Notes: generated by a model from the letters alone, not told the origin. Counted from the stretch's first letter, positions 1,998 through 37,440 are shown. The stretch: DNA of 38,601 nt from a virus (IMGVR_UViG_3300047586_000182:1-38601); one strand, 5' to 3'. A program made the numbers and translations.

Positions 1998-2600
1998 ATG
2001 GATGATGTCAGACCAATCGATATACCTCCGAAGAAGGGCCGGATTTCTATCCTCCTACTTTCGCCTGGCCCAGATTCTAATCATTTCGTCAATTGTGGGG
2101 AAGGGGGAAGATACACGGGTCGCAAGTCGAAGATTGAATCTTACCCTGATTGGAGAAAAATCGTTAAGCGTCTAGCATCTGGTGAAGAATACTCCAATAT
2201 AGTCCAAGATTATCCAGAGCTTACTTGGTTTGATTTAGATTATTATGCTAAAAATAAACTTCATAAGATAATATCAAAATCGGAGGATTTAAAATCTGAA
2301 GTAGAAAGCATCCAAGGCACCGACACCCTGGCCGAAGTCCGTGAGCTGAAAGTTAGGGCCTTAAACATCTTGGAGGAGGCTCAAAGTTCTGGAGATCTCA
2401 AAACCGCTCTTATGGGCATTCGAGAAGCTCGTGGTTGTCTTGAGACCTGCCTCAAAGCAGAAGGGCAGATCAAAGACGGGCCACAAATCACGATCATCAA
2501 TAACCCTGAGTGGGTAGATCTGAGAACAGTAATCATTATGGCGTTAGACGAATTCCCACAGGCAAAGGCGGCAGTAGTTCATGCCATCCGTGGAAGATGA
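1998..2600 (+). CDS. terS: Terminase small subunit, 200 aa (start uncertain)
   Basis: DNA-recognition subunit of the packaging motor. The part from about residue 45 (YPDWRKIVKRLASGEEYSNI) looks like an N-terminal helix-turn-helix; residues 110-160 (TLAEVRELKVRALNILEEAQ, then DLKTALMGIREARGCLE) form the long helices typical of the family, ending in NNPEWVDLRTVI. The gene overlaps the large subunit by 20 nt. The first 35-40 residues look unlike coding sequence and the ATG at 1998 has no Shine-Dalgarno site. A purine-rich GGGGAAGGGGGAAG at about 2098-2111 may mark a later, non-AUG start. The structured stretch before it may be its binding site. Confidence 0.7.
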   Translation: MDDVRPIDIPPKKGRISILLLSPGPDSNHFVNCGEGGRYTGRKSKIESYPDWRKIVKRLASGEEYSNIVQDYPELTWFDLDYYAKNKLHKIISKSEDLKSEVESIQGTDTLAEVRELKVRALNILEEAQSSGDLKTALMGIREARGCLETCLKAEGQIKDGPQITIINNPEWVDLRTVIIMALDEFPQAKAAVVHAIRGR

Positions 2601-3333
2601 CTTTATCTATGGCGTTGATCCTGTCTTATGGGCGAAGGAAGTCCTGGGATATCATCCAGATGAATGGCAGGCTCAACTCCTTAGAAGCCACGCCAAGAAG
2701 ATAATTCTCAATTGCTCAAGGCAGTCTGGCAAGTCCACGACGTGCGCTGCGCTTGGTTTACATGAATCAATCTATCGCCGACCCTCGTTTGGACTGGTAA
2801 TTGCGCCGACACAAGACCAATCTTCAGAGCTGATGCTCAAGTTTGACGAGTTCCGGGGTGCTGTGGAGCTTCCAAGCAATTACCTGAGCACCGATACAAA
2901 GCTTGCCGTCCGGTTCGCCAATGGCAACCGATTCATAGCACGTCCTGGGTCTGAGAAGAGCGCTAGAAGCTTTTCGGCTGTGACCTTGCTTCTGGAGGAT
3001 GAGGCCGCCCGGGTGGACGACGCACTTTATAATTCTGTCAGACCCATGCTTGCCGTCTCTAATGGCAGGCATATCCTGATGTCTACTCCCTTCGGCAAGC
3101 AGAATCATTTCTTCAAGATTTGGGATGAGCAGCGGGATATGTGGGAACGGATTGAAATCCCTGCCGAAATGTGCCCACGCATAACGAAAGAGTTCTTGGA
3201 AGAAGAGAGGCTTACCAATCCCTGGTTTGAACAGGAGTATCATTGCGTGTTCTTGGACGCAGAGGGCTCAATATTTTCCTCTGATCTCTTCAAGAGCCTG
3301 GCAAATCCCTCGGTGAGTGCATTGAAAATTTGA
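2581..3333 (+). CDS. terL: Terminase large subunit, ATPase part (ends at in-frame UGA)
   Basis: N-terminal ATPase half of the genome-packaging motor, 250 aa. It has the Walker A region CSRQSGKST (residues 45-53), the adenine-side motif IAPTQDQS, Walker B VTLLLEDEAARV (residues 134-145) with the acidic pair, and the coupling motif STPFGKQNHFF. The frame stops at TGA 3331-3333, right at the linker between ATPase and nuclease. The nuclease half continues in exactly the same frame 12 nt later, so one UGA codon divides an otherwise full-length terminase. See the next entry. Confidence 0.9.
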   Translation: MPSVEDDFIYGVDPVLWAKEVLGYHPDEWQAQLLRSHAKKIILNCSRQSGKSTTCAALGLHESIYRRPSFGLVIAPTQDQSSELMLKFDEFRGAVELPSNYLSTDTKLAVRFANGNRFIARPGSEKSARSFSAVTLLLEDEAARVDDALYNSVRPMLAVSNGRHILMSTPFGKQNHFFKIWDEQRDMWERIEIPAEMCPRITKEFLEEERLTNPWFEQEYHCVFLDAEGSIFSSDLFKSLANPSVSALKI

Positions 3334-3345
3334 GGTAAGTATGGT

Positions 3346-3990
3346 ATGATTCAAAGAAGATATCTGCTTGGTTGTGACTTGGCGAAGTCTTTGGATTTTA
3401 CGAGCTTTGCAGTTATCGAAATGATATGGAGCCAAGAAATCAGAGATTTTGTTTATCACTTGAAAGGTCTTGATCGCATCAAAGGCGTAGACTATCCGAC
3501 AATCACAGATCTGATCATAGAAGCAGTTAAACGACTCGCTCAGGAGGGACGTCAGACAACCAGTGATGGCCCGCATCTTTGCCTGGACGCAAGTGGTCTG
3601 GGCGCACCGATCAGAGACTACCTTAAGCAAACCGGGGTGTTCTTTGGTGGGATGCGTGGTCAACAGATTTATCCGGTGGTATTCACCGGGGGGGAAGCAG
3701 CACGTCATGACTTAGTAACCAAGAATTACAACATCAGCAAGTCTCTGATTATATCGAACTTCTTGAGCCTGATGCAACATAAGAGATTTGACTATGCGCC
3801 GGATCTCCAGACCCTTTCACTTCTCGAAAAAGAAATTTCCAGTTTCAAGTATCACCTAACACCATCGGGTCATACTGGATTTGATGCCGAAAGTGGTGCT
3901 CATGATGATCTAATCTGCGCGGTCTGCATTCCCCTCATAATCGGTGAGTGGAGATACAATCGAGGACCGAAAGCACAGGGCGCGAAATAA
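3346..3990 (+). CDS. terL: Terminase large subunit, nuclease part
   Basis: C-terminal RNase H-like nuclease domain, 214 aa, that cuts concatemers at headful or at a site. Acidic catalytic positions are visible: Asp in LLGCDLAKSLDF, Asp in LCLDASGLG, and the Asp pair in GAHDDLICAV. GAGGT at 3332-3336 lies 9 nt before the ATG, so it can be translated on its own by reinitiation. It is in the same frame as the ATPase half; reading the single UGA as sense would give a 469-residue protein, a normal TerL length. A split motor, readthrough, a mutation and a sequencing error are all open. Confidence 0.88.
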   Translation: MIQRRYLLGCDLAKSLDFTSFAVIEMIWSQEIRDFVYHLKGLDRIKGVDYPTITDLIIEAVKRLAQEGRQTTSDGPHLCLDASGLGAPIRDYLKQTGVFFGGMRGQQIYPVVFTGGEAARHDLVTKNYNISKSLIISNFLSLMQHKRFDYAPDLQTLSLLEKEISSFKYHLTPSGHTGFDAESGAHDDLICAVCIPLIIGEWRYNRGPKAQGAK

Positions 3991-9668: not shown

Positions 9669-10178
9669 ATGGTCGATCTAGCTCCTTATGTATCGGTTGC
9701 GAACGCCGAAACATGGTTGACTGCCCACATAACGAACTTGGCAGCGTGGACAGCCGCCACAGCGGGCCAAAAAGCAGCGGCTCTGATGGAAGCTAGCGAC
9801 CATATAGATGCCCTGCCACTGAAGGGCCTGCGGTATTTCCCTATAGTCACTCAGACCCGGGAGTTTCCCCGGTTCGACCCGAGTCTGTATAGAGCCAACA
9901 CAGACGCGCTCTACTTGTCGGCTTACGATCCTTCGGTCGTGCCCCGAGAAGTCCTGGATGCAGTCTGCTATGAGGCTCTGGCAATATTAGACCGCCTGGG
10001 AGATGCAGATCTGCCCTTGCGAGACAAGCTCCAAGATACCGGCGTGGCTTCCGTAGGCTTCGGGGGACGATCAGAGTCATACCTGCCAGGAGCAAACAAT
10101 CTTTATCATGGTCTGCTCTCCAAGAGGGCTTATAATCTGCTCAAATACTGGATAGCGATGAGCATGGAGTCTATCTAA
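9669..10178 (+). CDS. Head-tail connector (adaptor-type) protein
   Basis: 169 aa. Starts with YVSVANAETWLTAHITNLAA, an N-terminal pattern common in phage adaptor proteins of the gp15/gp6 connector type, followed by ALMEASDHIDALPLKGLRY and VPREVLDAVCYEALAILDRL. Such proteins bind the portal and form the first neck ring. The end overlaps the next gene (TAATGAG). Place after capsid genes supports the call, the exact family does not follow from sequence alone. Confidence 0.65.
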   Translation: MVDLAPYVSVANAETWLTAHITNLAAWTAATAGQKAAALMEASDHIDALPLKGLRYFPIVTQTREFPRFDPSLYRANTDALYLSAYDPSVVPREVLDAVCYEALAILDRLGDADLPLRDKLQDTGVASVGFGGRSESYLPGANNLYHGLLSKRAYNLLKYWIAMSMESI

Positions 10179-10726
10179 TGAGTGGATTCCTCACAGCAGG
10201 CGCTCTATTGCTGACCTACAAACCTGCTGAACTCTATAATGATCTGAGTGCTTCGTCTCTAGTACTCCCAGGGACATTACCATCGGTTCCCTTCAGATGT
10301 GCGATCATCCTATCTGCCTTGGAGGGGCACGCCGATGTATTTGGTGATGTCTACGTCAATGCCGAAAAGATCAGTTTCAGTATAGCGGGTCGAAAGACGA
10401 GTACCGTTCTGATGACATCGCTTCCTGCCATTACCACAGCCAATCTTGATTGTCAGATTCAGATCATAGCTCTCAATTCTGGGGGGGTGGAGCTCCAGCA
10501 AGAGACCAGGACACCAATATCTTGTGACTGGTCGGATGCCACATCTTGGTATCAGTCTGTTGGGGTCTGGGTTAGAGCCGATTCTAGCTGTGAGACGGAC
10601 AAGTTGGATATCGTGATCGACGACAAAGTTCTGTACAATGGCAGAACTTACACAGTCAAAAATGTTAAAGTGAAGGGGAAAACATTGGGCGGAAAAGTTC
10701 TAACGAAAGTATTACAATTTGCCTGA
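10178..10726 (+). CDS. Hypothetical neck or head-completion protein, 182 aa
   Basis: Overlaps the connector stop by one base. Mostly beta: repeated hydrophobic-polar alternation and an end KLDIVIDDKVLYNGRTYTVK followed by KTLGGKVLTKVLQF, which recalls the beta-barrel of head-closure proteins of the SPP1 gp16 type. Four cysteines are scattered. Family not recognised with certainty. A T-run/AATAATAAT element follows directly and separates it from the DGR. Confidence 0.55.
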   Translation: MSGFLTAGALLLTYKPAELYNDLSASSLVLPGTLPSVPFRCAIILSALEGHADVFGDVYVNAEKISFSIAGRKTSTVLMTSLPAITTANLDCQIQIIALNSGGVELQQETRTPISCDWSDATSWYQSVGVWVRADSSCETDKLDIVIDDKVLYNGRTYTVKNVKVKGKTLGGKVLTKVLQFA

Positions 10727-10728
10727 AT

Positions 10729-10747
10729 CCTTTTTTGAAATAATAAT
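10729..10747 (+). terminator. T-run/AATAATAAT element before the DGR
   Basis: CCTTTTTTGAAATAATAAT directly follows the head block and precedes the DGR target gene. It matches elements at 1551, 6709, 14527 and 20931. Probably ends head transcripts or marks an RNA-processing site. Confidence 0.4.
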
Positions 10748-10777
10748 CTGAATACATCGTCGCTTGGTGGTTGAAGT

Positions 10778-12349
10778 ATGACACTAGATGCAATCTTAAG
10801 TAGATATTTGAAGGCCCGGGATTCGGATTTCGGGGGCAAGAAGATCATAAATCTTGGCGCGCCTACTGAATCGGGCGATGCGGTCCGCTGGGATGAATTA
10901 CAAGTTGGCCTCAATTACATCATCGGCGTCGAGTGGGACACGTCGTGCAGCTCTCCGGCTCTTACTCAGATCGATGCCTATGGCACGGCCATTACCCAGA
11001 AGTCACACGCCTGGTTCGATGCACATCCCATATGGGGGAACATGCGACGCTGCCTGCTATCGGTTGCCGGAGTTCCAACATTTGGCCAAGATGCCCGGGG
11101 AATCAACCTCAATTTCGATGGTTCTATGGGCCAGGCGATGGTCAGGATACCGAAGTGCTACATCAAGAGTGAAAAGGTCGGAACCAAGATCCGTTGGTGG
11201 ATCTCCCCGGTGGCCTTCACAGGCTTTGAGGTTCACCCGGCCTTTCTCCAAAGGGGCGGCACAGAAAGGGCACAGCTCTACCTGGGCGCTTATACTGCCT
11301 GCCTGGGTATCACCCCCGGGACGGGCGTGAAGTACCTGCTCTCTAAGACCGGAGAACAGCCGTTCACTGGAGAATGTATTGTTGAACTGCCCTTTGGCAC
11401 AGGCAGTAGCGCGCCTGTAGTCGGAGAGACGCTGACCGGGGCGAGCTCTGGTAAGACTGGCATAGTGATAGGTCATTATGTTTCATCAGGCTCATTCGGG
11501 AGCAGCAACGCGGTCGGAAAGGTCTACCTGAAGCAACCTGGCGTCGCTACTAATCTGTTCACCAACCCCGAAAATATGCAGAGGACCGGCCCGACAACTA
11601 TCATGGCCACGACCGCCACCGGGGCAGTATTGTCTCTCACCAGGCAGCTCGCTGAGACCTATGGAAATAATATTGGATCTTCTCGGTGGGGCTGTGAAAA
11701 CATCTGGTCGCTTGATCTCGTCACCATGCTCTATCTGGTCGAATATTGCAACTGGAACTCGCAAAGTATTTCGGCAGGCATCGGGCAGGGGATAGTCAAT
11801 AAAGCAGGTGGATCGGGATTCGCAGGAGAGAACAACGGTGCCTTTTCTGCAAATAGTAACATTGCCGTTAACGGGACAGGTACAGGAACAGGAACAGATG
11901 GTCTAACGCCGGTTGTTTTCAGAGGCATCGAGAATCCCTGGGGAAACGTCTGGCAGTTCGTCATCGGTCTGGATGCTCTGGATGCTGCTTATCGTATCCT
12001 GAATCGAAACGGAACCGGAGTCCCGGCTTGCCCTCTGACGGCTGGAAACTACGAAAGTTCGGTAGCTGCTCCGATTGCTTATAATGTCTCCACCATGCCA
12101 GACGGATACGCAGAAGATCTGCTGTACGAAGATCTTACTAAGTATCTTCGCTTACCGGATTTAGCAGGTGGTTCATCTGCGACATATATATGCGATTATA
12201 TCTATTGGCATAGATCGGGGCAAGTGAATGTTTGGATCGTCGGTGGCTATTGGGTTAATGGCGCGTCTGCGGGGGTCGGTTGTCGCGATGCGAGTCGCGG
12301 TTCGTCGTTTTCGTATCCTGCGTTTTCCGCTCGGCCCGAGTTCGTGTGA
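10778..12349 (+). CDS. DGR target protein, tail-tip/receptor-binding type with C-type-lectin fold
   Basis: 523 aa. The N-terminus (TLDAILSRYLKARDSDFGGK, KIINLGAPTESGDAV) resembles a fibre attachment segment. From about residue 75 it has the formylglycine-generating-enzyme/C-type-lectin pattern: WFDAHPIWGNMRRC, IPKCYIKSEKVG, IWSLDLVTMLYLVEYCNWNS, ENPWGNVWQFVIGLDAL, and the end region GGYWVNGASAGVGCRDASRG. The last 38 codons are the variable repeat (12230-12340), which places changing residues on the ligand-binding face as in BPP-1 Mtd. Its place before tail genes and its retroelement suggest a host-binding protein. The gene lies away from the other fibre genes. Confidence 0.9.
   Translation: MTLDAILSRYLKARDSDFGGKKIINLGAPTESGDAVRWDELQVGLNYIIGVEWDTSCSSPALTQIDAYGTAITQKSHAWFDAHPIWGNMRRCLLSVAGVPTFGQDARGINLNFDGSMGQAMVRIPKCYIKSEKVGTKIRWWISPVAFTGFEVHPAFLQRGGTERAQLYLGAYTACLGITPGTGVKYLLSKTGEQPFTGECIVELPFGTGSSAPVVGETLTGASSGKTGIVIGHYVSSGSFGSSNAVGKVYLKQPGVATNLFTNPENMQRTGPTTIMATTATGAVLSLTRQLAETYGNNIGSSRWGCENIWSLDLVTMLYLVEYCNWNSQSISAGIGQGIVNKAGGSGFAGENNGAFSANSNIAVNGTGTGTGTDGLTPVVFRGIENPWGNVWQFVIGLDALDAAYRILNRNGTGVPACPLTAGNYESSVAAPIAYNVSTMPDGYAEDLLYEDLTKYLRLPDLAGGSSATYICDYIYWHRSGQVNVWIVGGYWVNGASAGVGCRDASRGSSFSYPAFSARPEFV
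12230..12340 (+). other. DGR variable repeat (VR)
   Basis: 111 bp at the 3' end of the target gene aligning without gaps to the template at 12711-12821. All 24 differences lie at template adenines; 8 of 32 template adenines are unchanged, and no G, C or T of the template differs. Identity ends with GCCCGAG; beyond it two non-adenine differences occur, consistent with the IMH (VR) versus IMH* (TR) border. The repeat ends 9 bp before the last base of the stop codon. Confidence 0.96.
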
Positions 12350-12372
12350 ATGCGTAGCACGGAAGACGAAAG

Positions 12373-12681
12373 ATGGAATACCAAAGGTTTTCTGAGTTTG
12401 CGAAAGAGGATAAGCATCTCGAAGGCCCGAAGAGGAGGATTGACGAGGCTTTAAACCTCGAACTCCTCATCACGGGCTACAAAATAGGTAAAAGCCGGTA
12501 CAAGAATAGAAATAGCAACGAAGATATGGATTATCTATCTTTGCAAATAGAAATCAACGGCGAAAAGTTTGTAATCTTTACCGGCTCATGCGTGTTGGCG
12601 GAGCAAGTAGAAAAATACAAAGACAAAATACCATTCTTGGCTAAGATTGTCAAGATAGATAGATATTATTCATTGTCCTAA
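12373..12681 (+). CDS. DGR-embedded accessory protein, 102 aa
   Basis: Encoded between variable and template repeats, where other DGRs carry an accessory gene such as avd. It is not the usual four-helix Avd: the middle (LELLITGYKIGKSRYKNRNS, DYLSLQIEINGEKFVIFTGS) is beta-rich, followed by a helix (LAEQVEKYKDK) and FLAKIVKIDRYYSL, which looks like an OB-like barrel that could bind nucleic acid. Weak Shine-Dalgarno site (GAAG). A role in template or target handling is a guess from position. Confidence 0.65.
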   Translation: MEYQRFSEFAKEDKHLEGPKRRIDEALNLELLITGYKIGKSRYKNRNSNEDMDYLSLQIEINGEKFVIFTGSCVLAEQVEKYKDKIPFLAKIVKIDRYYSLS

Positions 12682-12710
12682 ATCGTTGGATTGGTTAGGT
12701 CACGAAAGTT

Positions 12711-12821
12711 GTTTGGATCGTCAGTAGCAATTGGGATAATAGCACGAATGCAGGGGTCAGTTATCGCAATGCGAATAACGATTCGTCGAATTCGAATCAT
12801 ACGATTTCCACTCAGCCCGAG
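12711..12821 (+). other. DGR template repeat (TR)
   Basis: Non-coding 111-bp copy of the variable repeat, on the same strand and upstream of the reverse transcriptase gene. Read in the VR frame it is rich in AAY and AGY codons (N, S, D, T), the usual design that gives wide diversity and few stop codons when adenines are changed. It holds 32 adenines. The region 3' of it (12822-12942) would be part of the template RNA. Confidence 0.95.
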
Positions 12822-12884
12822 CTCGGGAGAGCTAAGTCTCGAACAGTGACTTAACCAGAACCGCAAGGTCGAACACATTACGAA

Positions 12885-12929
12885 CTGAGGTACGGTGTTA
12901 GTACCGAAAGGGAAAGCTCGGCACCTCAG
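12885..12929 (+). ncRNA. Hairpin in the TR-RT spacer RNA
   Basis: CTGAGGT (12885-12891) pairs perfectly with ACCTCAG (12923-12929). An alternative inner stem GGTAC/GTACC (12890-12905) competes with it. In the BPP-1 DGR the spacer between template and reverse transcriptase is needed for cDNA priming, so this structure may do the same here or regulate translation of the enzyme. Confidence 0.45.
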
Positions 12930-12942
12930 CGAGACTATTTTC

Positions 12943-13989
12943 ATGAAGCGACACGGGAACCTTTACGGCCAGATATGTGATATGGAGAACCTCAAGCTAG
13001 CACATGTCAATGCTCGAAAAGGCAAGCTCCATTACAGCGAAGTTCAAAAGGTCAATCAGAACCCTGAGAAGTATCTGGGCGACCTGCAAAGAATGCTTCT
13101 CAATAAGACCTACAAGACCGCGCCCTATAAGCTCATGGAAGTTTACGAGCCGAAGAAGCGCACTATCTACAAGTTGCCATATTACCCTGATCGAATAGCC
13201 CATCATGCGATCATGAGTGTGCTACAGCCTATATGGGACAGGACATTCATAGACGATGTTTACTCTGCCATCCCAGGGCGAGGGCTTCACGCCGGCCTGA
13301 TAAGGTTAAGACAGTTCATGAGAGACGAGCCAGGTACTCAATATTGCCTTAAGTTTGATATCAGCAAGTTCTATCCCTCCGTGGACCACGAAATACTTCT
13401 TGAACTCATTCGGCACAAGATCAAGTGCAAGGATACTCTATGGCTGCTTGAAGAGATCATTCGAAGCCCGGGCGGAAACAAGAACATCCCGATAGGCAAT
13501 TACCTTTCTCAGTATTTCGCTCAGATCTATTTGGATCCTCTAGATCGATGGATCAAAGAAGAAAACCACATGCACTATTACATCCGATATGGTGACGACG
13601 GCGTTGTCCTTCATAGTAATCGGCAATTCTTGAAGGATTTGCTAACCGGGATCGCAGGCTTCATGAAAGAACACCTCGATTTGACCATCAATCCCAAGAG
13701 CCGCGTGTTCCCAGTCGATTCGGTCGGGATAGATTTCCTGGGATATCGGACATTCCGAGACTATTCACTTCTGAGGGCAAGTGCGGCAAAGAGATTCAAG
13801 AAAAAGATTCACTTCATAGAAGAAAATCATGCTTCAATGGAACCTCAGACGATTGTAAGCACGATCATGTCCTATCTCGGATGGATCGGGTTCTGCAACG
13901 GTTACAATCTTCAGAGAAAATACGTCACTGAAAATGAGAATATACAATTGATCCTGAATCGTGCGTCGGAGACACTACATGCGAGATAG
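12943..13989 (+). CDS. DGR reverse transcriptase
   Basis: 348 aa, group II-intron-like reverse transcriptase that copies the template RNA with errors at adenines. Motifs: KLPYYPDRIAHHAIMSVLQP (motif 1-2 region), CLKFDISKFYPSVDH (motif A with the first Asp), the DGR signature IPIGNYLSQYFAQIYL (GxxxSQ instead of QG of other RTs), RYGDDGVVL (YGDD catalytic motif C), then VGIDFLGYR. ATG 12943 (MKRHGNLYGQICDMENL) matches usual family starts; an upstream in-frame GTG at 12895 lies inside the spacer hairpin. No maturase or endonuclease domain. Confidence 0.96.
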   Translation: MKRHGNLYGQICDMENLKLAHVNARKGKLHYSEVQKVNQNPEKYLGDLQRMLLNKTYKTAPYKLMEVYEPKKRTIYKLPYYPDRIAHHAIMSVLQPIWDRTFIDDVYSAIPGRGLHAGLIRLRQFMRDEPGTQYCLKFDISKFYPSVDHEILLELIRHKIKCKDTLWLLEEIIRSPGGNKNIPIGNYLSQYFAQIYLDPLDRWIKEENHMHYYIRYGDDGVVLHSNRQFLKDLLTGIAGFMKEHLDLTINPKSRVFPVDSVGIDFLGYRTFRDYSLLRASAAKRFKKKIHFIEENHASMEPQTIVSTIMSYLGWIGFCNGYNLQRKYVTENENIQLILNRASETLHAR

Positions 13990-31623: not shown

Positions 31624-32321
31624 TGAGCTATTCCAGGACGATTTGGGTCGAGCATTCGATGAACGAATCTCAGAAAATAGCCGCCCTCAACAATCTTGAA
31701 ACCCAGTATGATGCGTCTATTGCCGCCGTTATTGCCCATCGGCACGATTCTATCTACTTCACAAAATCAGAAGCTAACTCTCGGTTCTTTGGGGCCAGCA
31801 ACGATGGTGTAGGCTCTGGGGCAAATGCTGGTACCCTGGACGGTTACACAGCCGACGCTATTAGCTCATCATCCATTGCGCCAGGCTTCATCGTGATGTA
31901 CGCAGGCACGGATTATGCTCTTCCAGGCGGCTGGGAGGAATACGCCGCTGCAAATGGAAAATTCCCTGTAGGTGCTGGCGCGACCTATGCAGTGAAGACG
32001 GTCGGTGGAAACCAGATGACAGGATCGCCACTGAACCCACATGGCACGATCTCTGGCTTTGCGATGGACCTCGGAACGATGCCCCCGCATACACACACAT
32101 TCACACAATATTATAATCCGAAGGTCGACAATAGGGCAGTAGGCACGCCCACAATGTACTGTTACGTGAACGCGAGTCTCTTGACGCACACCGGTTATGC
32201 CTACGATGATGTTGGTGGAACGGCCGCAGGTGCCTCGCATTCGCACGAATGCACCGTCAGCCTAAACAGCATCGATCATACTCCGCCTAACGTGATTTTA
32301 AGATTTCTAAAAAAGTCGTGA
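31623..32321 (+). CDS. Tail collar/fibre protein 1
   Basis: 232 aa from ATG 31623 overlapping the hub stop; an upstream in-frame ATG is inside the hub gene. Pattern: N-terminal helix with WVEHSMNESQKIAALNNLET, HRHDSIYFTKSEANSRFFG, then the collar domain GGWEEYAAANGKFPVGAGAT, and His-rich PPHTHTFTQYY and SHSHECTVS, a metal-binding HxH style as in T4 gp12-like tips. Ends in NHTPPNVILRFL-type sequence. First of three paralogues. Confidence 0.72.
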   Translation: MSYSRTIWVEHSMNESQKIAALNNLETQYDASIAAVIAHRHDSIYFTKSEANSRFFGASNDGVGSGANAGTLDGYTADAISSSSIAPGFIVMYAGTDYALPGGWEEYAAANGKFPVGAGATYAVKTVGGNQMTGSPLNPHGTISGFAMDLGTMPPHTHTFTQYYNPKVDNRAVGTPTMYCYVNASLLTHTGYAYDDVGGTAAGASHSHECTVSLNSIDHTPPNVILRFLKKS

Positions 32322-32328
32322 GGTTTCC

Positions 32329-33027
32329 ATGCTTTACTCAAAGCTCAATTTAGCGGATGATATTGATGACATCACCGCGCGCGCTATGAATTGTATGGAA
32401 ACTATAGCAGAGGACTGCTTATCAGACATATCTACCCACGACCACGATTCTCTATATTTGACAAAAGTTCTGGCAAATGCGTCTTACTGGTCAGTTGACA
32501 ATGGGCATTTATGTAACGCTGACATGTTGCAAGGCTCTCATGCATCGGATCTCTTGGGTCATGGAGCTAGCTTGCCAATAGGCGCAATGATCTTCTGGGA
32601 TGGTCTACTAGGCAGCATCCCGGCTGGATGGTATCTGGCAGACGGAAATAATGGCACCATGGACATGCGCAATTATTTCCCGGTCGGAACTTCTAGCACT
32701 TTCGCAATAGGAGCAACTCGCGGATCAGCCACAAACACGCCATCGGGATCTATATCCGACCAGGGGCACGCGCTCACTGTCGCTGAAATGCCTCGCCACC
32801 TTCACGACGTCATAGACTACTACTTTCTGCCAGGGACAGCGGTAGTAGCGGTCTATACGGGGGGGTCATTTGCCACTTATCAATATAATTATTCAACCAA
32901 AACAACTACTGTGGATTCGGTGGGGGGAGGAGCAGCGCACGTTCACAGCAGATCAACATGGTCGGCTGACGCAATATCCAATCTTCCACCATATATAGCA
33001 TTATATATAATAGAGAGGGTGTTCTGA
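32329..33027 (+). CDS. Tail collar/fibre protein 2
   Basis: 232 aa, GAGGT upstream. Same order as its neighbours: HDHDSLYLTKVLANASYW, then SLPIGAMIFWDGLLGSIPAG WYLADGNNGT, a collar domain, MDMRNYFPVGTSSTFAIGA, EMPRHLHDVIDYYFLPG, AHVHSRSTW and LPPYIALYIIERVF. His pairs match those of the first paralogue. One-base overlap with the next gene (TGATG). Confidence 0.72.
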   Translation: MLYSKLNLADDIDDITARAMNCMETIAEDCLSDISTHDHDSLYLTKVLANASYWSVDNGHLCNADMLQGSHASDLLGHGASLPIGAMIFWDGLLGSIPAGWYLADGNNGTMDMRNYFPVGTSSTFAIGATRGSATNTPSGSISDQGHALTVAEMPRHLHDVIDYYFLPGTAVVAVYTGGSFATYQYNYSTKTTTVDSVGGGAAHVHSRSTWSADAISNLPPYIALYIIERVF

Positions 33028-33695
33028 TGGGATACACGAAAACCGTTTGGGATGCCAGCACTCCGCTATCGGAAAGCAATCTCGCGCATCTCGAATCCCA
33101 GGCGGATGCCCTCGACTCGGCGATGCTGGCTGTGAATCATTCAGCAGATTATTACACGATTACCGAATATGTTAGTCGCTTTTTCAACATTACAGCAATG
33201 GGTCCGGGCAGTGGTGCGGATGCCGATTTACTGGGAGGACGTACGAAGGCCCAAGTATTAGCAGCTTCCGTCCCAGTGAGCACAGTCATTATGTGGCATG
33301 GGAATATTGCCTCTCTGCCCGCTGGTTTTCTGCGTTGTGATGGCAGCAACGGTACCCCGAACATGGGGAATCGTCTGCCATTCGGTGGAAATTATAATAT
33401 CAAGACTGCCGGAGGGCAGGCGAGCACTGCCTGGGCGGGCAACGTTTCTATCCAGTCACATGTGCTCACTATCCAGGAACTTGCGAACCATACACATAAC
33501 TGGTATGATGAATATCCTTCCGGACTCACTGATATGTGCACGAAATATGATACTCCATTAGCTACCGGAAATCAGAATTATTGCGTTACGAGTTTCACCG
33601 GTGGCGGCGGAGGACATAGTAGCAATGCGACTTTAACGGGAGTAAATGCTAATTATCCGCTTTGCAAAGCGGTTCACTTTCTGATCAAAACATAA
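33027..33695 (+). CDS. Tail collar/fibre protein 3
   Basis: 222 aa. MGYTKTVWDASTPLSESNLA, then VSTVIMWHGNIASLPAGFLR and CDGSNGTPNMGNRLPFGGNY are a clear phage collar domain; ELANHTHNWYDEY and GGGGHSSNATLTGV carry the His motifs. Start overlaps the second gene. Together the three may make a heterotrimeric or alternative tip; sequences differ enough to suggest different ligands. Confidence 0.72.
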   Translation: MGYTKTVWDASTPLSESNLAHLESQADALDSAMLAVNHSADYYTITEYVSRFFNITAMGPGSGADADLLGGRTKAQVLAASVPVSTVIMWHGNIASLPAGFLRCDGSNGTPNMGNRLPFGGNYNIKTAGGQASTAWAGNVSIQSHVLTIQELANHTHNWYDEYPSGLTDMCTKYDTPLATGNQNYCVTSFTGGGGGHSSNATLTGVNANYPLCKAVHFLIKT

Positions 33696-34252: not shown

Positions 34253-35164
34253 TTAGATCCCTAATTGTGGTATATGCGCTAGGTAGCTTTTCCTCACATC
34301 TTCTGGTGAGATGTGGACGTAGGGCCCCATGCTGCCTCTTGGCGCATCTCCTCTGAGCCAGGCAATATATCGCTCTTCCATGCCTGCCCGATAGAGCCAG
34401 GTAGTGAAGGCGTGCCTGCAGCAATGCGGCGTGAACCTGTGCTCTAGGAGCTTGCTGCCCGGGTCATGCAGACTGGCACGGATAGCGTGCTTCTCGACTG
34501 CTGCCTCCAGACCCCGGAGGGATAGACGCGAGGAGTTCTTGCTCGGGAACAGGGCCAGGCCTCCATGAGTCGATCTATTTTTGCGGGCCAGGAACCATGC
34601 CGCCAGAACTTCCTCCGTCTCAGCGTCAAAGAATAGCAACCTATTAGAGCGCTTCGATGTGGGTTTGAGGCGGATTTCTCTTTTTAGAAGATTTACATCC
34701 CCTACGTCCAGCGCTAGCATTTCGTTGGCCCGCATCCCGGTCTTGAAAAGGAGCATGAGCATGGCCTTGGCCCGGCTGTCCAGGATCAAGTTCACCAGGC
34801 GGCCCGCATCCTCCACAGAGATGAGCTGCCGGACATCCTGGGCGAGCTGCTCCTTATACTGATGGACGTAGCGGCGCCGGAACGGAGGGACCGGGTTGCT
34901 CGAAACAAGCCCCTCCTCGGCCAGGTACTCGTAGAAATTGGAGAGATGAGAGAAGGCCTTGTCGATGGTGGACTGCTTGAGGTCACGGCCGTGGAGGGCC
35001 ATAAGGTAGGCCTTCAGGTCTGATCTGGTGGCCTCTTCCGGGGCTTTCTGGAGGCCTGTCAAGAACTCCTGGATGTAGGATACTGAGGTGCCAGAATACT
35101 TGTGACCCCGGAGCTGGCAATCCGAACGAAAGTCGTCTACGAGGGTCAATTTATCGGCATCCAT
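34253..35164 (-). CDS. int: Tyrosine recombinase (integrase)
   Basis: 303 aa. N-terminal SAM-like core-binding domain (TSVSYIQEFLTGLQKAPEEA, STIDKAFSHLSNFYEYLAEE), then the catalytic domain with Arg in FKTGMRANEMLALDVGDV, HCCRHAF (His-x-x-Arg of box II), a basic KPTSKRSNRLL strand and the nucleophile Tyr in MGPYVHISPEDVRKSY. Archaeal XerA-like. It would insert the genome at an attachment site, often a tRNA gene; the tRNA-like unit at 1639-1722 is the only tRNA-like candidate seen. Start overlaps the 48-aa membrane gene by 14 nt. Confidence 0.93.
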   Translation of the reverse strand: MDADKLTLVDDFRSDCQLRGHKYSGTSVSYIQEFLTGLQKAPEEATRSDLKAYLMALHGRDLKQSTIDKAFSHLSNFYEYLAEEGLVSSNPVPPFRRRYVHQYKEQLAQDVRQLISVEDAGRLVNLILDSRAKAMLMLLFKTGMRANEMLALDVGDVNLLKREIRLKPTSKRSNRLLFFDAETEEVLAAWFLARKNRSTHGGLALFPSKNSSRLSLRGLEAAVEKHAIRASLHDPGSKLLEHRFTPHCCRHAFTTWLYRAGMEERYIAWLRGDAPRGSMGPYVHISPEDVRKSYLAHIPQLGI

Positions 35165-35346: not shown

Positions 35347-35781
35347 TCAGGGACATTGAATTTCAGTACCAACCACGATTTTCATTTTATTGCAGCATGA
35401 CATTACACGATCAAGCGCCCTCTCAAATCGTGCCCATTTATCGAGCTTGCCGTTGTGTATTCCGACGCTTACACGATCTCCCAACACCGTGCTAGGAATC
35501 AGCCATACATGTTCAGGATTCAATGATTCACGATTGTCAAATGCCAGACAGAGAAAATAATCTGCCACTATATTATGGTTTATCGCAAAGTTCCAAGAAT
35601 ATGCAGTTCCTTGATAACGTCTACAAGAACTTTTGATATCGATCTTGAATCCTTTTCCACATATATAATCATACTTTGGATTATTTACGGGCATTCGTTC
35701 CATATGATCAAAGAATGTTGATAAAATTCTTTCCGAAACGTAAACTCCTAAATATGGCGCGCTGTTTTTTGCTTCTTCCAT
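35347..35781 (-). CDS. PD-(D/E)xK-like nuclease, putative
   Basis: 144 aa. NNPKYDYICGKGFKIDIKSS has the D-x(n)-(D)xK layout of a PD-(D/E)xK nuclease (IDIK as the core strand), followed by WNFAINHNIVADYFLCLAFD and PEHVWLIPSTVLG, like phage and archaeal proteins of unknown function near homing or restriction genes. Two Cys in CCNKM at the end. It may protect the provirus, or act in DNA processing; no modification gene is next to it. Confidence 0.6.
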   Translation of the reverse strand: MEEAKNSAPYLGVYVSERILSTFFDHMERMPVNNPKYDYICGKGFKIDIKSSCRRYQGTAYSWNFAINHNIVADYFLCLAFDNRESLNPEHVWLIPSTVLGDRVSVGIHNGKLDKWARFERALDRVMSCCNKMKIVVGTEIQCP

Positions 35782-35803: not shown

Positions 35804-36277
35804 CTATGTGACTGTATCCGCGAATTTATCGATTATATCATTTCGGGCCTTGACAGGGCCAATTTTCATTTCAGTGTCATAATCTTTGACCCATTTGGAG
35901 TAAACCGTTCCCGATCCTATTTGTGTCCCAAACTGCCCTCCGGGTTTGTTGACACCGATCTCAGCCTTATCAGGGAATCCATACTCATTATAAAAGTTTA
36001 TGTAGGTTCTGAGGCCAGCATATAATACGTTTCCCACGCTAGGCACGCTGGTATTGTCAACCGTGACTGTCATTGAAACATGGTCTTCCCAGATGAAGCA
36101 AGATACTTCAAGCAATCCAGAGCTAGGGGCAAAAATACCAATTTCCTTTTCATAGTTCTCTTTCAATGGTTTTTGGTACTTGTCATTGACCCCAAGATAA
36201 TCATATACCGCTACACCAGGCACTGATAAGATCAAAAGAGCCCCTATCAGGATTATTGCTATACATTTTTCACTCAT
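35804..36277 (-). CDS. Exported or membrane-anchored protein, 157 aa
   Basis: N-terminus MSEKCIAIILIGALLILSVP is a signal peptide or anchor. The mature part is beta-rich (LLEVSCFIWEDHVSMTVTVD, VLYAGLRTYINFYNEYGFPD). GGGAGGAT lies before the ATG and an own promoter with operator palindrome lies about 110 nt upstream. A surface protein made from the lysogeny block suggests superinfection exclusion, by inference. Confidence 0.65.
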   Translation of the reverse strand: MSEKCIAIILIGALLILSVPGVAVYDYLGVNDKYQKPLKENYEKEIGIFAPSSGLLEVSCFIWEDHVSMTVTVDNTSVPSVGNVLYAGLRTYINFYNEYGFPDKAEIGVNKPGGQFGTQIGSGTVYSKWVKDYDTEMKIGPVKARNDIIDKFADTVT

Positions 36278-36387
36278 GAATTATCCTCCCTAAAGTTTTA
36301 GTCTTTAGCTCCTAAAGCTTATCTACATGACATTTGATTCATACTATACTATTCACTTAATATCTTATCCTTATCCAAACTAACTTA

Positions 36388-36413
36388 ATATATAAACATG
36401 TGATAATCACATG
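36388..36413 (-). promoter_or_regulatory. Promoter with operator palindrome for the leftward block
   Basis: On the minus strand CATGTGATTATCACATG (36397-36413), a perfect 8+1+8 palindrome, is followed at once by TTTATATATTAAG, a strong TATA box. The palindrome covers the BRE position, so a bound dimer would block TFB. The first gene starts near 36277, giving a leader of about 85 nt. Confidence 0.6.
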
Positions 36414-36852: not shown

Positions 36853-37440
36853 ATGGCAGAAGAAAACGAAAACAAATACGAGCTTCTGCTCGATGAATCC
36901 ATAGAAGTCCTGGGAACGAAGCTCTTCAGGATCCGGGCGAAATGCTCCTTTGGATCCATAGAAAAAGGCGAGAAAGGCGGCTACATCGAAGCTGAAAAGA
37001 ACCTTTCTCAAGCGAATAATGCCTGGGTCTACGATAATGCCTGGGTCTACGATAATGCCAGGGTCTCCGGGAATGCCAGGGTCTACGGGGGTGCCTGGGT
37101 CTCCGGGAATGCCAGGGTCTACGGGGGTGCCTGGGTCTCCGGGAATGCTGAGGTCTTCGGGGATGCCGAGGTCTCCGGGAATGCCTGGGTCTACGATAAT
37201 GCCAGGGTCTCCGGGAATGCCAGGGTCTCGAAAACTTCTGATATCATCGTGATCGGTCCGGTCGGATCAAGGGACGCTTTTCTGACAATCATAGTTCCGT
37301 CCGGCAAGGCGACTACTGGATGCTTTTCCGGCTCCCTGGATGAGCTAGAAGAAGCAGCCAAGAAAAATGAAAGACAAGACTATCTAGATCTACTACCAGG
37401 CATCCGGGCCATTGTCGCCAGAAGAAAGGATGTGGCCTGA
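36853..37440 (+). CDS. Beta-helix repeat protein, 195 aa
   Basis: Residues 56-127 are twelve 6-residue units of the form (N/G/D)A(W/R/E)V(Y/S/F)(G/D), as NAWVYD and NARVSG, a left-handed beta-helix typical of LbH and of phage proteins of unknown function. The N-terminal part (NKYELLLDESIEVLGTKLFR) and the C-terminal part (SSDELEEAAKKNE-like, then a helix) flank it. GAGG lies upstream. A possible structural mimic or anti-defence scaffold; role unknown. Confidence 0.7.
   Translation: MAEENENKYELLLDESIEVLGTKLFRIRAKCSFGSIEKGEKGGYIEAEKNLSQANNAWVYDNAWVYDNARVSGNARVYGGAWVSGNARVYGGAWVSGNAEVFGDAEVSGNAWVYDNARVSGNARVSKTSDIIVIGPVGSRDAFLTIIVPSGKATTGCFSGSLDELEEAAKKNERQDYLDLLPGIRAIVARRKDVA
37018..37233 (+). 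repeat. Twelve 18-bp tandem coding repeats
   Basis: Units such as AATGCCTGGGTCTACGAT and AATGCCAGGGTCTCCGGG follow one another for 216 bp. Neighbouring copies are nearly identical at the DNA level and alternate in higher-order pairs, so copy number can change by slippage or recombination without shifting the frame. Not CRISPR: no spacers. Confidence 0.85.

Follow-up and report, generated by a model that had tools for sequence, protein, structure and literature searches.

In the DGR (diversity-generating retroelement) of the Bordetella phage BPP-1, a target gene (Mtd) is followed by Avd, the template repeat (TR) and the reverse transcriptase (bRT). The RNA spacer between TR and reverse transcriptase recruits the reverse transcriptase complex and primes cDNA synthesis, and a hairpin after the variable repeat (VR) is helpful, but not strictly required (PMC12875486). 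A structure has been solved for TaqVP, the DGR variable protein of Thermus aquaticus (5VF4, PMC6328139). In the archaeal domain, a DGR is carried by ANMV-1 (KP703175), a putative ANME archaeal virus (PMC4372165). The initial annotation of the DNA presented here regarded DGRs of archaeal viruses as rare and named ANMV-1 as one known case; at least two more are deposited, vir525 (Methanosarcinales) and vir215 (Methanomassiliicoccales).

Here, we describe a complete DGR at positions 10778–13989 of a virus record of 38,601 bases (the window, by which we mean the whole stretch of DNA analysed). The order is target gene, VR, accessory gene, TR and reverse transcriptase (RT). With a probability of about 0.93, we consider this the working or very recently working DGR of a tailed virus, probably one of Methanomicrobia-type methanogens. 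The cassette type is already known, and the locus represents a further case in a little-studied branch associated with methanogens.

Layout of the cassette and its target

The window encodes terminase, portal, capsid, tape-measure and integrase proteins. All parts of the DGR lie on the plus strand, and each component listed in the initial annotation was located in the order given there. The VR (12230–12340) aligns with the TR (12711–12821) over 111 bp without a gap, or 112 bp with the preceding T. Realignment reproduced the reported adenine pattern: the repeats differ at 24 sites, every one a template adenine (14 A>G, 7 A>T and 3 A>C), 8 of the 32 template adenines are unchanged in the VR, and none of the other 79 sites differs. 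This adenine-type pair is unique in the window, as judged by a scan of its entire length on both strands. The TR had been described as coding mostly AAY/AGY codons, which overstates their share, since they account for 12 of the 24 codons containing an A (8 AAY and 4 AGY). None of these 24 codons is convertible to a stop, and about 10^18.4 protein variants are encodable from the TR. Elsewhere in the window, three consecutive, similar-looking tail-collar-like proteins (31657–32321, 32329–33027 and 33027–33695) are encoded with no TR/VR pair. Besides that, a protein at 36853–37440 is built of repeated NARVYGGAWVSGNA-type units and matches the YdcK family below the cut-off.

The target gene (10778–12349) encodes a protein of 523 amino acids with relatives in the related viral contigs L002, L003 and L006. 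It matches phrog_5302, annotated as ‘tail protein’, at 7e-56, and among the predicted viral proteins matching its C-terminal domain the best named ones are mostly tail fibre proteins; Pfam and NCBIfam searches of the target returned nothing useful. The initial annotation had placed it at the tail tip: its identity as a tail protein is supported, whereas the phrog_5302 label says nothing of the tip. Structure prediction for the whole target from five sequences gave a pLDDT of only 28.9. The last 246 residues (11609–12346), which end with the VR, were modelled by AlphaFold from a 55-sequence alignment with a pLDDT of 86.1 and a pTM of 0.85. For this model, the best PDB match found by Foldseek was TaqVP (5vf4, E 2e-6), followed by weaker matches to Mtd and formylglycine-generating enzymes, and a sequence profile of the domain likewise found 5vf4 (E 1.2e-9). 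The predicted fold of the target C-terminus is therefore that of a C-type lectin, in line with the initial annotation, and the VR is predicted to encode the ligand face of this domain. By analogy with BPP-1, the target may bind a receptor of the host.

The two repeats are distinguished by the base triplet that directly follows them. A putative IMH at the VR end (12335–12343) reads CCCGAG and then TTC, and the corresponding putative IMH* at the TR end (12816–12824) reads CCCGAG and then CTC. This TTC/CTC difference is present in all seven loci compared (the window, L002, L003, L004, L125, Methanogenium L046 and L045), so that the one-base distinction between putative IMH and IMH* appears conserved across the clade. 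Downstream of the VR, the search for a hairpin revealed weak, unconserved folds only, none of them convincing. By comparison, the spacer of 121 bases that separates TR from RT (12822–12942) is conserved, and compensatory changes accompany its fold. Double changes were counted at 14 predicted pairs against a shuffle mean of 7.4 (0/500 shuffles reach 14), and slid controls gave 3–5. Since the fold of the single sequence is not unusual (z -1.3), the support for a structured spacer comes entirely from covariation. An Rfam search gave no match.

Reverse transcriptase relationships and the probable host

The RT (12943–13989, 348 amino acids) matches PF00078 at 1.9e-18 and the reverse transcriptase family phrog_1423 at 2e-118. 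The reported GxxxSQ and YGDD motifs are both present, as GNYLSQ at 13495 and YGDD at 13588. A start at ATG 12943 is favoured over the GTG that the ORF finder proposed at 12895, because the RTs of relatives begin at the ATG. In two quick trees, the RT falls into a clade (SH-aLRT 99 and 95) together with a Methanoregula MAG, the isolate Methanogenium cariaci JCM 10550, one Dehalococcoidales MAG and viral contigs. Kinship with the RT of ANMV-1 was considered but finds no support in the tree, which sets the ANMV-1/nanoarchaeal clade apart; the RT also lies outside the clades of vir525 and vir215.

The terminase distribution points in the same direction as the RT clade. TerL matches with E<1e-15 were obtained in 19/232 genomes of the class of Methanogenium (best 53% identity), compared with 1/227 and 1/155 genomes in two bacterial classes. 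TerS matches five of the terminase loci in the methanogen class, and the tape measure matches the Methanogenium locus at 31%. The large terminase itself is encoded by two ORFs, an ATPase part (2581–3333) and a nuclease part (3346–3990). In the loci of the methanogen class, the nuclease part is conserved at about 25%, far below the ATPase part at about 50%. From RT clade and terminase distribution, we infer that the host is quite likely a methanogenic archaeon, probably of the Methanomicrobia type.

The competing explanation that survives best is that the same DGR resides not in an archaeal virus but in a phage of bacteria, such as an anaerobe living in the same habitat. The major capsid protein is nearest to those of bacterial phages (best 37%) and found no match among the 231 genomes searched in the class of Methanogenium; the gene at 35347, also considered as a host marker, had no match in that class either, and as host markers both negative results are uninformative. 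In addition, the best RT match from an annotated phage comes from a Psychrobacillus phage (49%), and one member of the RT clade is found in the Dehalococcoidales MAG. Viral contigs are easily misbinned into MAGs. Against a bacteriophage, the RT clade has two further cellular members, both of them methanogens and one an isolate; TerL matches are far more frequent in the Methanogenium class than in the two bacterial classes, and TerS and tape measure match loci of methanogens as well. We therefore regard a bacteriophage as unlikely. The wording ‘archaeal-type tailed virus’ in the initial annotation is thus favoured by the RT clade, TerL, TerS and the tape measure, weakened by a capsid protein without a methanogen match, and best read as a deduction about the host.

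Rewriting judged from related viruses

On the question of activity, related viruses can stand in for reads, among them L002. Its RT is 90% identical, and it has its own TR/VR pair with 28 adenine-only differences. The two viruses are well diverged, because 76 sites (21%) differ within the 360 bp upstream of the VR. Despite this divergence, in neither virus do VR and TR differ at any non-A site. Between the two VRs, 18/27 shared template-A sites differ, but 0/66 shared non-A sites. The expectation that variation would be confined to template-adenine positions is hence upheld, by comparison across related viruses rather than by reads. Furthermore, the two TRs show eight differences that do not involve an A, and at 8/8 of these each VR tracks its own TR. 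Retrohoming into each VR from its own TR thus continued after the two viruses split; repeated retrohoming predicts such a pattern, and drift does not.

Independent adenine-only TR/VR pairs were also found in L003, L004, L005, L045 and Methanogenium L046. A more distant relative, with a target domain about 25% identical, is represented by three contigs (L030, L032 and L033) with the same flanks and the same TR; their VRs mutually differ at 18–22 of 33 template-A sites and at 0/80 others.

The cassette could alternatively be an inactive relic, a DGR that once worked and left its VR as a frozen variant. In favour of this, a search of IMG/VR with a degenerate TR/VR pattern found no conspecific VR variant, and the relative L006 (IMGVR_UViG_3300046496_000007, 10001–11902) is devoid of the cassette. 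In L006, a target gene 76% identical to that of the window is followed, after 24 bases, by a homolog of the window gene starting at 13979. Therefore, accessory gene, TR and RT (12350–13978 in the window) are missing exactly there, which shows that cassettes of this kind come or go. No relative of the RT was found in the 46.9-kb L006 record, which may be incomplete. Its VR-equivalent differs from the TR of L002 at 26/33 A sites and 24/79 others (p 2.6e-6) and, with the same reservation about the record, looks like a scarred VR left after loss of the DGR; service by a DGR in trans is conceivable. What makes a relic very unlikely for the window is that the frames of RT, accessory and target are all intact and that its VR, like that of L002, still agrees with its own TR at all non-A sites (79 in the window). 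Finally, the probability of an ordinary duplicated repeat, diverged by drift or editing (e.g. deamination) beside a group II intron-like or defence-type RT, is negligible: the RT does have a weak, sub-threshold match to the group II intron maturase model, but A changes to G, T and C on one strand exclude deamination and drift (hypergeometric chance of 24/24 differences hitting the 32 adenines, 7.8e-18), and the RT nests among DGR RTs whose loci carry their own adenine-only TR/VR pairs.

Altogether, a DGR that works or worked very recently is supported by the adenine-only changes, the TR/VR pairs of relatives, the lectin-type target, the RT family, the IMH/IMH* distinction and the covariation in the spacer. 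In such a DGR, the TR would be transcribed together with the spacer, in which, by analogy with BPP-1, priming from RNA would take place. A complex of the RT and the accessory protein, again modelled on BPP-1, would copy the TR, placing random bases wherever the template has an adenine. The VR, at the 3' terminus of the gene for the tail protein, would then be replaced by this cDNA, with retrohoming at the IMH as in BPP-1. In this way, up to about 10^18 variants of the tail would be within reach of the virus population, presumably as a means of tracking changes of host surface receptors.

The accessory family and known DGRs

The accessory gene (12373–12681) encodes 102 amino acids and is 96% identical in L002. 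Avd was tested as a candidate and rejected (no BLASTP match, hhalign probability 0.2%). We found no relative in Pfam, NCBIfam or, by profile search, the PDB, and in PHROGs some homologs of the protein belong to an unannotated family only. The fold may be beta-rich and OB-like, which is solely our own reading of the sequence. A profile grown from the protein found homologs beside DGR RTs in records labelled Desulfobacterales, Bacteroidales, Cloacimonadota, Omnitrophica and methanogens, as well as in vir525 and ANMV-1 (AJP62065.1, ‘hypothetical’). Among 89 DGR loci, 24 have the accessory family, 46 Avd, 19 neither and none both. The corresponding Fisher p of 2.5e-10 ignores RT kinship and is unusable as a probability; as the RTs are related and not independent, the mutual exclusion is suggestive only.

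The position of the gene differs between clades. It lies between VR and TR only in the clade of the window (window, L002, L003, L004, L125 and Methanogenium), upstream of a TR-like repeat in Methanoregula, and after the RT outside this clade, wherever its position is readable. A single relocation is compatible with the RT tree (AU p 0.39). By position and association, the protein would be an analogue of Avd, and the cassette appears to mimic the BPP-1 order target-Avd-TR-RT with an unrelated protein. Tentatively, and with odds slightly against us, we propose that DGRs with this family form a subtype that does without Avd and occurs across several bacterial phyla and in archaeal viruses. In methanogen-associated viruses, the gene would have relocated once, to the site between VR and TR that Avd occupies in BPP-1, and the protein would do Avd's job of holding template RNA and RT together. 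PMC10053308 refers to one protein that is linked to DGRs and lacks a Pfam family, which an earlier survey (its reference 12) had named. This protein may be the same family, and for this reason we do not claim its discovery.

If the host assignment holds, DGRs are thereby present in a second branch of methanogen-associated viruses, apart from ANMV-1. One member resides in the cultured Methanogenium cariaci JCM 10550, so that DGR biology in archaea may come within reach of culture experiments; a limited literature search found neither a published DGR of this species nor a survey of methanogen-virus DGRs. An uncurated accessory protein stands in the expected place of Avd in a large share of the sampled DGRs, and L006 offers a natural comparison, at one locus, with and without the cassette. 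Further study seems worthwhile for the accessory family, the cassette-less relative and the methanogen clade that includes a cultured member.

Compared with BPP-1, the locus shares the order target-accessory-TR-RT, adenine-only VR changes, a VR in a C-terminal lectin fold, the TR-RT spacer and IMH/IMH*. It differs in an accessory protein unrelated to Avd, an RT of another clade and in that no clear hairpin was found after the VR. TaqVP is the best solved match of the target domain by both structure and profile, but it shares only about 16% identity and is a bacterial, single-domain protein. ANMV-1 likewise combines the DGR of a putative archaeal tailed virus with a lectin-type target and the accessory family. 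However, its RT belongs to a different clade, its accessory gene lies 3' of the RT and its target shows no match to this target family in a profile search. In ANMV-1 (L151), the accessory homolog AJP62065.1 lies at 36106–36402, and a small annotated ORF, AJP62063.1 (34834–35028), overlaps the TR (34817–34932). The archaeal-virus DGRs of vir525 and vir215 have adenine-only TR/VR pairs as well, and the target of vir215 also belongs to phrog_5302. Their RTs are only 40–42% identical and fall into other clades; the accessory gene of vir525 follows the RT, and none was found in vir215. The closest cellular counterparts are Methanogenium cariaci JCM 10550 (L046) and the Methanoregula MAG (L044), with RTs 56–58% identical and in the same clade and the accessory gene upstream of the TR. 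In L044 (1–3531), accessory gene, TR-like repeat and RT are present, but no target gene adjoins upstream, and its VR may be located in another part of the genome. L046 has an adenine-only TR/VR pair like the window, but in this draft the reading frames of both RT and target are interrupted; in this cultured methanogen, tail genes surround the DGR (NZ_BBBG01000005.1).
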